In this document: positions 8,017 through 42,850 of the stretch, piece by piece
How positions within the stretch are numbered: position 1 is the first letter of the stretch
Layout: each line of letters starts with the position of its first letter
From: Candidatus Shapirobacteria bacterium
Lineage (GTDB): Bacteria > Patescibacteriota > Microgenomatia > UBA12405
DNA: 46,406 nt
NCBI GenBank assembly: GCA_028700625.1
Contig: JAQVSI010000004.1
Coordinates: 1 to 46,406 of the forward strand
Direction of reading: 5' to 3'
Notes under the pieces: generated by a model
Databases searched by the model: none
What the model saw: only the letters and a program-made list of their open reading frames with translations
What the model was told of the DNA's origin: nothing
Program-made: the position numbers and the translations under genes

Positions 8017-9660
8017 ATGTCCATCGTTAATATTCTTAAAAAAATCAATTCCCGCGACACTCGCCTTTTCCCTACAGTAAACACTCTAACTAAAATAATT
8101 TTTATCGCCTTAATCACCATAACTGCCACTTTTTTTGTCAAAAATATTCTCGCTGCCACCAATACTAATATCATTAAACAAACCCAAGATGCCCAAATAA
8201 AAAGCAATAATGCTGAAAGTTGGCAATTAAATTCTTGGAATACCACCGCTGTTAATGCCCTTACCACTTTAACAGGACCTCTCCCTTTCAACGAAGATGG
8301 TTCCATCGACGAATCAAAATACCAATTATCTGGTCTTTTGGGTACTTCAGCAAAAATGGCGACTGCTTTTTATCAACCACAAGCTTCTGGAGTTGAATAT
8401 ATTGCTCAAGTTAAAAATACTTTTTTAGGTAAACCAACATATGCTCAAGGAGTTTCCTTTAAAGCAGGACAAAGTCTTCAACCTCTTCTTCCTTTATGGA
8501 AAATTTTAAGAAATGTTGTTTATGCAATATCTTCAATTGTTTTTATTATTATTGGAGTTATGATTATGCTTCGAGTTAAAATTAGTCCTCAAGCCGTCAT
8601 TACCGTACAAAATAGTATTCCAAAGTTGATCACCACTTTAATTCTTGTAACTTTTTCTTACGCAATTGCCGGTTTGATAATAGACCTAAGTTACTGGATT
8701 CAAGGAATGGTTCTTATGATCTTTTTTTCAGCTAAAGGAGTGGCTTTAGATTCATCTCTTTTTACTGATCACAGATGGTCTAGTCTGATTCCACTTTTTG
8801 GAGGAACTGGCGCTAGTGTATTATTTAAATTTAAAAACCTGGCTACTGCTGATTTTGCTACTCTTTCAACTTTAGCCAATGCTACTGTCCCCGCTGGTTC
8901 AATGTTAGCTCTTAGTGGACTTGTTGGTCAAATAGTTTTAGGTAGTATAATCGGTGGTGTTGGTGGTCTTTTAGGTACTGGTGCTGGTTGGGCTTTAAAT
9001 TGGGGCGGTGGCGCAATTGGTTGGGCAATTGGAGCTGTGGGTGGATTGATTTTTGGCATAATCTTATTCATTTTTGTTGCAATTTGGTTGATTAAATTAT
9101 TTTTCGGTCTGCTTACTGCCTATGTAACTATTATTATTCAAATAATTACTGCTCCCATTGTTATCGGTATGGGTACTTTTCCAAACAGTAAAGTGGGTTT
9201 TTCTTCTTGGATTATTGATTTAATTTCCAAAGTTACTATTTTTCCAGTTGTATTAATAACCGTTGTCTTTATTAATTATATTATTGATAATGTTGCTGGA
9301 ATGGATCTTTGGAGACCATCATTACTAGATACTGGTGTTCTTGGGGGTGGAGCTGTAATCAAAGCTGCAATTGGCCTTGCTGGCCTTGCCATGATATCTA
9401 AACTTCCCAAATTAGTCCCAGAAGCTATATTTATGCTCAAAGCATCTCCATTTGGCAAAGCTATCGGTGAAAACCTTAGTAATATGCCTGGAAGCAAAAC
9501 TGCTCAGCAAGGACTTAGTATGGCAAAAGAAGCTGGATTTAAAGCAGCTGGCACTAGAATAAAAGAAATTCGTGATCTTAATAAGAAAAAGAATACTTCT
9601 AAACCAGGTACAAACGAAAATCCACCAACTGGAGAAAGTCTAGATAGTGCTCAACTATAA
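8017..9660 (+). CDS. Polytopic VirB6/TrbL-like T4SS membrane protein
   Basis: 547 aa with many TM segments, Gly-rich central region and charged C-tail; in operon order after pilins; TAAAAT 8005-8010. Confidence 0.6.
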   Translation: MSIVNILKKINSRDTRLFPTVNTLTKIIFIALITITATFFVKNILAATNTNIIKQTQDAQIKSNNAESWQLNSWNTTAVNALTTLTGPLPFNEDGSIDESKYQLSGLLGTSAKMATAFYQPQASGVEYIAQVKNTFLGKPTYAQGVSFKAGQSLQPLLPLWKILRNVVYAISSIVFIIIGVMIMLRVKISPQAVITVQNSIPKLITTLILVTFSYAIAGLIIDLSYWIQGMVLMIFFSAKGVALDSSLFTDHRWSSLIPLFGGTGASVLFKFKNLATADFATLSTLANATVPAGSMLALSGLVGQIVLGSIIGGVGGLLGTGAGWALNWGGGAIGWAIGAVGGLIFGIILFIFVAIWLIKLFFGLLTAYVTIIIQIITAPIVIGMGTFPNSKVGFSSWIIDLISKVTIFPVVLITVVFINYIIDNVAGMDLWRPSLLDTGVLGGGAVIKAAIGLAGLAMISKLPKLVPEAIFMLKASPFGKAIGENLSNMPGSKTAQQGLSMAKEAGFKAAGTRIKEIRDLNKKKNTSKPGTNENPPTGESLDSAQL

Positions 9661-9731: not shown

Positions 9732-12053
9732 TTATTTTCCTTTCTTTCCGCCGTTAGCAAAATAATCCCAAAAATAATCAGTAAATTTTGATTTTCTATT
9801 CAACCTCATTGCTTCTATATATGTCAAACTATTACCTTTATTGTCATGGGCAATTTTTTGTTCAAGTATCCACTTCCATTGAGTTTCATTTATAAAAGAT
9901 TTTTTTGTCTCTGATAACTGAGTGTCTAAAACAACTTCTTTAAATTTACTCATTGCGTTAGTATCCCAACCTATGTTCTCTTTGGTTGCAAATATTTCCA
10001 ATAAGCCCAACACATAAAAAGCTTTCATATTATAAACACCACCACGACTTTTATTTTCACTATTAGCATCCTTTTCTGCCGGTGTCTCTGCTTTTCTCCA
10101 GCCAGTAGTTGTTTTTACCATTTCATAAGGTGGATCAACCTTGTCGAAACTACCAACTAACTCCTGAAAATTAGATAAATTTAATATCTTCTTTGGATCT
10201 GGATCAGATTCCATTAATGCATTTTTAACCGACAAAGTATAAGACGACAATACTTTTCCAAAATACATTGAAGAATTCTTTTTTCCAATTGCTTTATCTA
10301 CCAATACCTCTTCCGCCTTTATCGGACCCATTTTATCAGTCAAATCAGTAGACCTAGAAAAATATCTTAACCACCCATGAGCCAAACTTTCAATTCCTCT
10401 CGTTGCAAAAGGACCCATCTTTTTTCCCTTGGAAGCATCATCATTTCGATAATCTCTAAAATAAATAACTTCACAATTATTATCACCATTAATAAAACCA
10501 AAATTAAAAGTTGATGTTTCTGCTGTCGCATCAGCCAACTCATTAGCTAATTCATAAGCTTTTTTCCCATTATTACCAAGTTTACTAATTATATATTTAT
10601 CAACGATTCCTGCTCTTTCCGGATCATAACCATTACCATCCATAAATAATCCACCGTCTTGACCTTTAACAGAAGACATTTTAGGATCAATTTTTAAAAA
10701 TTTATCACGGCCACCACTATAATCTTTAGCATAACCACTTTCCCAAATTTCTCCTAATATTTTTTTATAATTAAAATTAGCTTCCTGGATATAATTCCAA
10801 GCACCAGCAATATTAAAACCAACCTCAGCAGACTCCTTAAAACAAAATTTTAAAACTTCCGTGTCCATTGTTCTGTCTATTTTAGATGCCTGATCAATCA
10901 TGTCACCAATACCACCCCTACCACTTTCGGTTATTCTAAAACTCACATCTCCTAAAAATTTACCGATATCAAAAATAGTTAATCTCGCTCTTATTTCTTT
11001 TCTTAATAACTCATATTCTTTTAAATTAACCCCAGTTTTTTCTGCTTCTGGAATTAATTCTGTCTTTAATTTATTAGTAATATGATCCAAAATATCTGTA
11101 GGTTGACCTGTTAAACGATATCTATTTGAAGCGTCTTCTAATCCCTCAATATAATCCAAATTTTTTCTGGCTATATTAGTTAAAACATTAACATCTGTTT
11201 CTTTCTTGATTAGATTTAAAAGTTCATATCCACCAATATCATCTATATCCTTTTGACTATTATCTTTTCCATCAGAATTTATTTTCTTTACCACTTTAGC
11301 CATTTTTTCTGCCGCAGCACTTATTTTTTCTACTGCTTGACCTAATACCGCTGCCACATCTAATTTATCAGCTGACCCATCAGCAGTGCCTTGCTCACCG
11401 TCAAGAATTCCTACTTCCATTTTTAAATATTCTTTAGCTTGTATCCATTCTTGTCTTTGATCATCAGAAATAATTTCTTTTCTCAAAGATAAAAGTCCTT
11501 TTCTTTGTTCAGCAATTTCATCAGCCGCTTGTTTTCTTTCAAAAGAATCTGTTAGATCATAGCTATCTCTAATATCACTAATTTCACGATAAATCTCTCT
11601 TATTTTTGGACTAGTTATTGTTATTTCCATTATTCCTCTTTCTAAATTTAACTCAGAATGACCACCATTATCATATTTAGTTGTTTTTGGTAAAATATCC
11701 CTCAATCCACCCACATTTAAACTAGTTTGTAATTCTTGATCATTATTTATTGCTAATGAACTAGATCTTCTCAAAATATCAAAAGTTTGATTTATTAATG
11801 TTTGATCAAGATGGTCATCACAACTTTTATCAATTAAATCTTTATAAGAATTAATAACATCTCCACTTGCAAATCTCACTACTTCGTCCACTTTGTTAGT
11901 TCTCTTTTGTTCTGTTTCAGAATTATCTTTCTTAAAAATTCCACTTTTTTTTATTTGTTCAGCCACGCTCAATATTTTTTGTTCAACTGGCTTTTCAACT
12001 TTACCCACGGTAAAACTTTTTTCCATATTACTAATTGGTTGAAATTCACTCAT
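9732..12053 (-). CDS. Large hypothetical protein, 773 aa, predicted cytoplasmic
   Basis: Long intact ORF with no obvious TM segments; TATAAT at 12060-12065 (minus) exactly 6 bp before ATG. Confidence 0.65.
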   Translation of the reverse strand: MSEFQPISNMEKSFTVGKVEKPVEQKILSVAEQIKKSGIFKKDNSETEQKRTNKVDEVVRFASGDVINSYKDLIDKSCDDHLDQTLINQTFDILRRSSSLAINNDQELQTSLNVGGLRDILPKTTKYDNGGHSELNLERGIMEITITSPKIREIYREISDIRDSYDLTDSFERKQAADEIAEQRKGLLSLRKEIISDDQRQEWIQAKEYLKMEVGILDGEQGTADGSADKLDVAAVLGQAVEKISAAAEKMAKVVKKINSDGKDNSQKDIDDIGGYELLNLIKKETDVNVLTNIARKNLDYIEGLEDASNRYRLTGQPTDILDHITNKLKTELIPEAEKTGVNLKEYELLRKEIRARLTIFDIGKFLGDVSFRITESGRGGIGDMIDQASKIDRTMDTEVLKFCFKESAEVGFNIAGAWNYIQEANFNYKKILGEIWESGYAKDYSGGRDKFLKIDPKMSSVKGQDGGLFMDGNGYDPERAGIVDKYIISKLGNNGKKAYELANELADATAETSTFNFGFINGDNNCEVIYFRDYRNDDASKGKKMGPFATRGIESLAHGWLRYFSRSTDLTDKMGPIKAEEVLVDKAIGKKNSSMYFGKVLSSYTLSVKNALMESDPDPKKILNLSNFQELVGSFDKVDPPYEMVKTTTGWRKAETPAEKDANSENKSRGGVYNMKAFYVLGLLEIFATKENIGWDTNAMSKFKEVVLDTQLSETKKSFINETQWKWILEQKIAHDNKGNSLTYIEAMRLNRKSKFTDYFWDYFANGGKKGK

Positions 12054-40350: not shown

Positions 40351-40389
40351 TTGACAAATTTTTTAATTCGGACTAAAATTGTCCAATAT
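40351..40389 (+). promoter_or_regulatory. Sigma70-type promoter with overlapping IscR-like dyad
   Basis: TTGACA 40351-40356, 17-bp spacer, TAAAAT 40374-40379; dyad GGACtaaaattGTCC 40370-40384 over the -10. Confidence 0.75.
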
Positions 40390-41917
40390 GAATTTGTCAA
40401 CCAAGTCTCGCTATGGTCTCATGGCTTTAGCTAATCTTCTAAATCAAGATTGTTGTTGTTCTGTCAAGAAAATTTCCGAAGCAGAACATATTTCTAGTGA
40501 TTACCTTGAAAAAATTTTTTCTAAATTAAAAAAAGCTGGAATTTTAAAAGTCGAAAGAGGAGCTTGTGGTGGTTATTCCATTAACGGTGACCCTAAAAAA
40601 ATTACATTAAGTAAAGTTGTAAATGCCCTAGAAAAGGCAGAATTTACTTGTCCAGATTTTTGTACTTGTCAAAGTAAATCAGTTTGGCAAAAAATTCAAT
40701 CTGGGTTTGGTTATGTTTTAAGTTCTATTACCCTCGATCAACTGTCTAATTTCAAAAACAAATCAATTTATCTCGATTATGCTGCTTCTACTCCGGTTGA
40801 CTCTGAAGTTTTAGCCACCATGTTACCTTATTTTTCTCAAAATTATTCTGGTAACACTATGTCTCTTCATAAATACGGCAACAGTGCTTCTCAAATAGTT
40901 GAATCTTGTCGTCAAACTTTTGCTGATATTTTAAAAGTTAAATCTTCAGAGATTATTTTCACCAGTTCGGCCACTGAAAGTAACAATACCGTTCTAAAAG
41001 GAGTTGCTTTTGCCAACAAGTCCAAAGGTAAACACATTATTATTTCTTCAATTGAACACGATTGTGTTTTAAACAGTGCCAAATGGTTAGAAACTCAAGG
41101 TTTTGAAATCAGTCAAATTTCTGTCGATAAATTTGGTCTTTTAAATTTAGATGAGCTTAAAAAAACTATCCGCCCCGACACTATTTTAGTTTCTATAATT
41201 CACGGTAACAATGAAATCGGCACTATTCAAGATCTCGCTAGTATTGGTCAAATTTGTCACGATCGCGGAGTTTATTTTCACACCGATGCTTCTCAAAGTT
41301 TTACCAAAACTCCTATTAATTTATCTAAATTAAATATAGATTTATTAACTGCCTCTTCTCATAAAATTTACGGTCCCAAAGGAAGTGCTCTTCTCTACAT
41401 TAAAACCGGCACTAAAATTACACCTCTTCTTCATGGTGGCGGTCATGAGTTTGGTTTTCGTTCTTCCACTGTCAATCTTCCTGCCATTGTTGGTTTTACT
41501 AAAGCAGCCGAAATTGCCATCAAAAATTTTGATCAAGAAAAAGAAAAACTAACCAAAATTAGGGATTATCTAATTAATAATATTTTAAAAACTATTCCCG
41601 ATTCTCATCTTAATGGTCATCCTACTAAACGTCTTTTTAATAATATTAATATTTCTTTTGATCGAGTTGAAGGGGAGTCTCTTCTTTTAGAATTAGATTT
41701 TTTTGGAATTGCCGCTTCCACTGGTTCAGCTTGTTCATCTATGTCTCTCGAACCAAGTCATGTCCTACTAGCCACGGGTTTAAAATCAGAACAAGCTCAT
41801 GGCTCTCTTCGTTTTAGCCTTGGTCGTTTTTCTACCAAAGCCGAAGCGGATTATCTTTTAGAAGTTTTACCTCAAGTTATTAATAAATTTAGGGCACTTT
41901 CGCCTTTTAAAGGATAA
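40388..41917 (+). CDS. Rrf2-family regulator fused to cysteine desulfurase (IscR-IscS-like fusion)
   Basis: N-terminal MNLSTKSRYGLMALANL..ISSDYLEKIFSKLKKAGILKVERGACGGYSI, Cys cluster CPDFCTC; C-terminal IYLDYAASTPVD, ATESNN, HTDASQSF, SSHKIYGPKGSALLYI, STGSACSS. Confidence 0.93.
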   Translation: MNLSTKSRYGLMALANLLNQDCCCSVKKISEAEHISSDYLEKIFSKLKKAGILKVERGACGGYSINGDPKKITLSKVVNALEKAEFTCPDFCTCQSKSVWQKIQSGFGYVLSSITLDQLSNFKNKSIYLDYAASTPVDSEVLATMLPYFSQNYSGNTMSLHKYGNSASQIVESCRQTFADILKVKSSEIIFTSSATESNNTVLKGVAFANKSKGKHIIISSIEHDCVLNSAKWLETQGFEISQISVDKFGLLNLDELKKTIRPDTILVSIIHGNNEIGTIQDLASIGQICHDRGVYFHTDASQSFTKTPINLSKLNIDLLTASSHKIYGPKGSALLYIKTGTKITPLLHGGGHEFGFRSSTVNLPAIVGFTKAAEIAIKNFDQEKEKLTKIRDYLINNILKTIPDSHLNGHPTKRLFNNINISFDRVEGESLLLELDFFGIAASTGSACSSMSLEPSHVLLATGLKSEQAHGSLRFSLGRFSTKAEADYLLEVLPQVINKFRALSPFKG

Positions 41918-41919
41918 TT

Positions 41920-42372
41920 ATGTATTCCAAAAAAGTTTTCGAACACTTCAGAAATCCTCATAATTTCGGTTCTATGGACAATCCCACCGTCGTTGGTCAA
42001 GTTGGAAATTTGGCCTGTGGTGATGTTATGAAACTTTATTTAAAAATAGCCAAAAACAAACAAGGACAAGATTTTATTAAAGATATAAAATTTGAAACTC
42101 TTGGTTGTGCCGCTGCTATTGCCACTAGTAGCGTTGTTACCGATCTAACTAAAGGGAAAACTCTAACTGAAGCTTTAAAAATCACCAATAAAGACGTTGT
42201 TAAAGCTCTCGATGATCTTCCAACTATCAAAATTCATTGTTCTCTTTTGGCCATCGATGCTTTAACTGAAGCCATTTATTCTTTTTACAAAAAAACCAAT
42301 CAGCCTATTTCAGCTGATTTTGAACAAAAACATAATCGCATTATTAATTGCCAAACTCGTTTAAAACATTAA
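41920..42372 (+). CDS. iscU: Iron-sulfur cluster scaffold IscU/NifU-like
   Basis: HFRNPHNFGSMDNPTVVGQVGNLACGDVMKL, ETLGCAAAIATSS, KIHCSLLA. Confidence 0.93.
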   Translation: MYSKKVFEHFRNPHNFGSMDNPTVVGQVGNLACGDVMKLYLKIAKNKQGQDFIKDIKFETLGCAAAIATSSVVTDLTKGKTLTEALKITNKDVVKALDDLPTIKIHCSLLAIDALTEAIYSFYKKTNQPISADFEQKHNRIINCQTRLKH

Positions 42373-42391: not shown

Positions 42392-42850
42392 ATGTTTTTA
42401 GTAAAAACAGTCTACGCTCAATGTCCCGTCTGCATCGTTACTGTTGGTGGTGGCATGCTCATTGCTCAAAAATTAGGAGTAGATGACTTTTTGGTCTCTC
42501 TTTGGATTTCTGCTTTAAATACTGCCATTTCTTTTTGGTTAGCTCCTAAAATAAAAAATCGAATTTTAGGCAGTCCAATTATTCTTTCGCTTTTAATGCT
42601 TGGGTTTACTCTTTTTTATTTTTATTACACTAATCAAATTGGTGTCGTTACTAATAAAATTTTAGGTTTAGATAAAATTATTTTTGGTCAAATTTTAGGT
42701 CTTTTTGTTATGTTTTTTGGTATATTCATAGATCGCAAATCACGCAAATTAAATAGTGACAAAATTCTTTTCCCTTACCAAAAAGTTGTTTTTCCAGTTG
42801 GTTTATTAATTATTTTTACTTTACTATTTAAATTAATTTTAAAATTATAA
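42392..42850 (+). CDS. Hypothetical membrane protein with N-terminal CPVC motif
   Basis: VKTVYAQCPVCIVTVGGGMLIAQKLGVDD followed by four TM-like segments. Confidence 0.65.
   Translation: MFLVKTVYAQCPVCIVTVGGGMLIAQKLGVDDFLVSLWISALNTAISFWLAPKIKNRILGSPIILSLLMLGFTLFYFYYTNQIGVVTNKILGLDKIIFGQILGLFVMFFGIFIDRKSRKLNSDKILFPYQKVVFPVGLLIIFTLLFKLILKL

Follow-up and report, generated by a model that had tools for sequence, protein, structure and literature searches.

An Rrf2-type regulator fused to a cysteine desulfurase and followed by iscU in Candidatus Shapirobacteria: a probable self-regulating enzyme

Here we have examined a stretch of 46,406 nucleotides (the window) from contig JAQVSI010000004.1, part of an 813-kb genome which is about 97% complete; among named lineages, it is closest to Candidatus Shapirobacteria. 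An earlier note had proposed that one uninterrupted polypeptide joins an Rrf2/IscR-type regulator to an IscS-like enzyme and is followed by iscU, and this is borne out by the reading frame, the Pfam and NCBIfam matches and the catalytic motifs (Table 1). The first start in the ORF listing is a TTG at 40379, but it lies within the predicted promoter and operator and the ATG is common to the relatives, so we take ATG 40388 as the start. Pfam assigns residues 3-120 to Rrf2 (PF02082, 89.6 bits against a cut-off of 30) and residues 127-490 to Aminotran_5 (PF00266, 275.5 bits), both above the gathering cut-offs by a wide margin, and the NCBIfam model rrf2_super also matches the regulator half (84.1 bits, cut-off 73.3). 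NifS is the top NCBIfam match of the enzyme half; the NifS and IscS models are covered over their full length and score best, but below their equivalog cut-offs (491 against 531 and 428 against 643), while the subfamily model NF002806 is above its own (354 against 304). The PLP-binding Lys326 (SSHKIYG) and the catalytic Cys449 (STGSACSS) both lie in this half, and in an alignment of 45 sequences their columns are nearly invariant. A Foldseek search found human Nfs1, E. coli IscS and A. fulgidus IscS, and solved IscS/Nfs1 structures match by sequence as well as by fold. By these features the enzyme half is classified as a group I cysteine desulfurase (IscS/NifS) with all its catalytic residues. 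The nearest solved relatives of the Rrf2 half are 3lwf, 4cic, CymR (2y75) and IscR (4hf0). In the AlphaFold monomer model both domains are formed (mean pLDDT 84), with pLDDT below 50 at residues 84-104, which hold the Cys loop, and only a few residues link the domains. Could a separate IscS still be made from an internal start? We rejected this, as there is no suitable codon: ATG, GTG and TTG are absent from residue 91 up to about residue 142, where the IscS domain has its first helix, the earliest internal start codon being at residue 145 in the window and 142 in L032, one of the two other fused loci. Ordinary initiation would thus be unable to yield an intact stand-alone IscS.

Table 1. Features of the fusion locus (positions are those of the window)
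Feature	Position	Strand	Details
Predicted sigma-70-type promoter, TTGACA-N17-TAAAAT	40351..40379	+	-35 at 40351-40356, -10 at 40374-40379
Putative Rrf2/IscR operator	40365..40389	+	core dyad GGACTAAAATTGTCC at 40370-40384, overlaps -10
Rrf2-IscS fusion gene	40388..41917	+	509 aa; uninterrupted between ATG 40388 and the stop at 41917
Rrf2 winged-HTH regulator domain	40388..40747	+	residues 1-120; PF02082 E 2.5e-25
Altered Cys loop, CPDFCTC	40649..40669	+	Cys88, Cys92, Cys94; from alignment; invariant in the three fusions
IscS/NifS-type cysteine desulfurase domain	40766..41914	+	residues 127-509; Lys326, Cys449; PF00266 E 8.3e-82, TIGR03402 (NifS) E 1.5e-147
iscU scaffold gene	41920..42372	+	150 aa; NifU_N PF01592 E 2e-42; 2 bases past the fusion stop

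The earlier note had been wary of an assembly error and had looked to relatives for an answer. The identical fusion, free of stops, is present in two other species of the same genus, STF2_89 (85% identity) and STF2_116 (77%); these two fused loci are L031 and L032, the three fusion genomes are G000, G003 and G007, and iscU has the same position and length in all of them. Synonymous divergence among the three fusions is near saturation (dS about 0.7-0.9, and about 0.76-0.85 over the whole gene), with a dN/dS of 0.11-0.22 for the regulator half and of 0.12-0.18 for the enzyme half, which indicates that purifying selection acts on both halves and across the whole reading frame; conservation is lowest at the junction. 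Since the frame stays open in three separately assembled contigs at this dS, chance or error is excluded, and although a close relative, AMAZON02, has separate ORFs, the shared fusion and the selection along its entire frame leave practically no room for two genes merged by a missed frameshift.

The earlier note had also held that close relatives with the two domains as separate ORFs, together with read evidence of a frameshift or missing stop, would count against the fusion. The first half of this applies, as AMAZON02 (L033), of the same genus, is indeed such a relative, but the implied sequencing fault does not follow: its rrf2 and iscS lie in different frames with an 8-bp overlap, the iscS start falling within the 3' end of rrf2 (ATGAATAA), and this arrangement in a sister lineage documents the fusion event. 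In the enzyme tree the three fusions are grouped with an SH-aLRT of 99 and AMAZON02 is their sister, also with 99, which indicates that the fusion arose once. We infer that the split, overlapping pair is the ancestral state, and a small indel in such a pair would explain the fusion most simply. mutM upstream and iscU directly downstream are common to the fused and split arrangements, although in AMAZON02 mutM is separated from rrf2 by additional genes.

How widespread is this architecture? Our scan of genome contigs was based on a set of six short peptides and gave a list of 80 loci. Other patescibacterial rrf2-iscS pairs are adjacent or overlapping and are parted by a stop or a change of frame. 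In-frame rrf2-iscS pairs are many in Bacillota and Patescibacteria, but each full-length match listed outside the clade has a stop between the two genes, and we rejected the idea of a widespread fusion. The long 'open frames' of some Bacillota entries proved to be two ORFs, and a candidate from Acetoanaerobium was likewise discarded because of a stop in between. No stop-free fusion outside the clade was seen among the higher-scoring matches from about 720 Patescibacteria and 399 Bacillota genomes, so that independent fusions in distant groups may exist. In the open-access literature that we found, no natural IscR-IscS fusion is described. On this evidence we regard the fusion as real, of single origin and restricted to its clade.

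The TTGACA-N17-(-10) arrangement predicted ahead of the fusion is also found upstream of the gene in L031, L032 and L033. The four upstream regions, those of the three fusions and the split sister, share a single dyad, GGAC-N7-GTCC. The -10 box lies within it in the window and L031, and in L032 and L033 the dyad is closely 3' of the -10. Among 5000 Markov simulations, any common dyad arose in one and a dyad with at least two G/C per arm in none. Against the Type-1 consensus of E. coli IscR, as quoted in PMC6599224, the window site matches at 18 of 25 positions, L031 at 22 and L033 at 20; L032 gave no match, but a perfect 10-bp inverted repeat of its own occupies the same position. The 18 matches of the window are unexceptional when taken alone, being reached by 10 of 600 simulations and equalled or exceeded by several other 25-mers of the window, and the case for an operator therefore rests on conservation. 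Together, the consensus matches and the four-locus dyad identify, at the level of sequence, a putative Rrf2-type operator on the gene's own promoter which resembles the Type-1 sites, known as sites of repression by IscR (PMC6599224). Its conservation in the fused species and the split sister points to autogenous repression, and repression of its own gene by the fusion protein is probable and is the best-supported mechanism. Zero-mismatch matches to the dyad in the three fusion genomes occur at the fusion gene only. One-mismatch sites elsewhere appear at about the rate of a reversed control pattern, and we rejected a regulon beyond the gene's own operon. The ATG is only 8 nt 3' of the predicted -10 box in the window and in L031, so the fusion mRNA is probably leaderless or nearly so. 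Unfused patescibacterial rrf2 genes (L045, L042, L010, L127, L128 and L025) also have dyads like the IscR Type-1 site near the -10, that upstream of L045 being ATATCAGACTAAAATAGTCTGATAT, and several other patescibacterial rrf2 promoters match the E. coli consensus at 19-22 of 25 positions. Such dyads may form a putative operator class common to the rrf2 genes of these uncultured bacteria, which would supply a recognisable operator for the rrf2-iscS modules of several other patescibacterial genomes.

The regulator half differs from IscR in its cysteines. The cluster pointed out in the earlier note is there, as the stretch CPDFCTCQSKSVW, but differs from the canonical IscR triad. We aligned the fusions with about 20 patescibacterial and clostridial relatives and with an E. 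coli IscR sequence, which serves as a guide only; in this alignment Cys88 and Cys94 of the fusion correspond to Cys98 and Cys104 of IscR, the equivalent of IscR Cys92 is lost through a deletion of roughly ten residues, and Cys92 in the fusion numbering is a new cysteine between the other two. The position of IscR His107 is a Lys in the fusions, and most unfused relatives also have no His there. The IscR ligand set (Cys92, Cys98, Cys104 and His107) is thus incomplete, and the NCBIfam IscR equivalog scores 69.1 bits against a cut-off of 207.55. In P. aeruginosa IscR, loss of either Cys92 or His107 singly abolished binding to Type-1 sites (PMC6599224). With both equivalents absent, a cluster would have to be held by other ligands, unless DNA can be bound without one, and it may be that the fusion binds no cluster or binds DNA in a cluster-free form. 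Cys22 and Cys24 are kept in all three fusions, as are Cys88, Cys92 and Cys94, despite a protein divergence of 15-23%, which suggests that these five cysteines are used.

PF02082 matches only the fusion protein in the window genome, and a search of that genome with the fusion as query found no second cysteine desulfurase. The SufB/SufD core (PF01458) had no match in G000, G003, G007 or a fourth genome, G004. Five radical-SAM proteins in the window genome imply that Fe-S clusters are needed. With the only detected desulfurase, no SufB/D and such clients present, the fusion and IscU are probably the sole Fe-S route in this nearly complete genome. Among the genes after the fusion we recognised none of hscBA, fdx or iscA. 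Within the window's genus, SufB/D is present in G002, G005 and G006, which have a SufS-like and no IscS-type enzyme, and the IscS-type enzyme is present in G000, G003, G004 and G007, which have no SufB/D; the less complete G001 has neither. The two systems look mutually exclusive between congeners, which suggests a replacement of one by the other within one genus. In all three fused species, and not in AMAZON02, iscU is immediately followed by an ORF (42392-42850 in the window) for a hydrophobic protein of 152 aa which starts MFLVKTVYAQCPVCIVTVGGG, has a CPVC motif and no Pfam match, and is possibly redox or Fe-S related. Two further large ORFs of the window, 9732-12053 (773 aa) and 8017-9660 (547 aa), have no Pfam match.

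We propose, with a probability of roughly 70%, that the gene encodes a self-regulating cysteine desulfurase. The protein would dimerise through its IscS half, and the two Rrf2 domains of the dimer would bind the putative GGAC-N7-GTCC operator and keep the fusion and iscU from being transcribed. As repressor and enzyme would be the same molecule, the amount of enzyme would directly set the repression. The Rrf2 Cys loop could modulate this, most likely through an Fe-S cluster bound by the rearranged set Cys88/Cys92/Cys94 and possibly Cys22/Cys24, so that repression would fall when clusters are scarce, while the enzyme half would still serve IscU as the only known source of Fe-S sulfur in the cell.

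Is the covalent link itself of any consequence? It could be a structural accident, a neutral loss of stop and start in a shrinking genome which left the domains as independent as they were before. The 8-bp overlap of the sister is one small indel away from a fusion, the junction is poorly conserved, and operator and gene order were unchanged by the event. However, the fusion has been kept through a dS of about 0.8 and never re-split, and this lineage also has an altered Cys loop, a hint that the protein has adapted to being fused; we consider an accident a real possibility, but not the favoured one. Alternatively, the feedback could be plainly stoichiometric: the Rrf2 domain, attached to the enzyme, would repress its own gene constitutively, and the altered Cys loop would hold no cluster. 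The loss of the Cys92 and His107 equivalents fits this, as does the presence of CymR, which is not known to hold a cluster, among the better NCBIfam matches and the best PDB matches of the Rrf2 half, but the five cysteines kept in the diverged fusions speak against it, and we hold it to be somewhat unlikely. More doubtful still is a single-molecule Fe-S gauge, in which Rrf2 would read the state of its own desulfurase in cis via the rewired cysteines, the state being the persulfide load or the cluster assembled on the attached IscS-IscU. A further reading is a role of the PLP half solely as an effector-binding and dimerisation domain without desulfuration, as in MocR/GabR regulators, whose order of winged HTH and fold-type I PLP domain is similar: Lys326, Cys449 and their surrounding motifs are intact and the gene is coupled to iscU, and in a genome with radical-SAM clients we found neither a second desulfurase nor a SUF scaffold, so that we think this very improbable.

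In the self-regulating reading, most elements of the fusion have counterparts elsewhere. The iscR-iscS-iscU operons of E. coli and P. aeruginosa have both families in the same order with iscU next, as do the unfused rrf2-iscS(-iscU) pairs of Patescibacteria and Bacillota, and the autoregulatory Type-1 operator of the IscR operons has its putative counterpart here; what differs is that regulator and desulfurase are one polypeptide and that the regulator has an altered ligand set. As in the minimal IscS-IscU systems (MIS; Archaeoglobus 4eb5), a desulfurase and a U-type scaffold are the only recognised machinery, but here a regulator is fused on, and in contrast to A. fulgidus IscS, the closest PDB sequence to the enzyme half, which PDB titles call unusual, the catalytic Lys326 is present. 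The winged HTH with its conserved wing and recognition helix (YLE...RG..GGY) is that of the CymR, NsrR, RirA and IscR branches; the fusion adds a C-terminal enzyme to it, and its CPDFCTC spacing and Cys22/Cys24 pair match none of the aligned Rrf2 relatives. In MocR/GabR proteins, too, an N-terminal winged HTH is joined to a fold-type I PLP domain, which is a similar architecture but not a homologous fusion, since the HTH here is Rrf2 and not GntR and the enzyme a class-V and not a class-I/II aminotransferase (Pfam gives Rrf2, class-V and weak DegT and Beta_elim_lyase matches only), the linker is short and the enzyme appears, from its residues, to be active. PutA and BirA are trigger enzymes that bind DNA, metabolic enzymes which repress their own genes. 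The proposed role of the fusion is alike, although folds and pathway are different. The parts and the circuit logic are known; what is new is that the two proteins are covalently coupled and that the cysteines are rewired.

IscR-type feedback normally acts at a distance: clusters are made by the enzyme and the scaffold, and the regulator, a separate protein, either receives one or does not. The fusion locks regulator and enzyme at one to one and joins them physically. The event is a clean one, the unfused sister is available for comparison, and the genome is a reduced one in which no other desulfurase was detected. Does such a regulator read the cellular supply of clusters, or its contact with the assembly machine? 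This question, a long-standing one, can be addressed here in one protein. If the gauge were true, doubtful as we consider it, the enzyme would switch its own operon directly, with no separate sensor to be matured.
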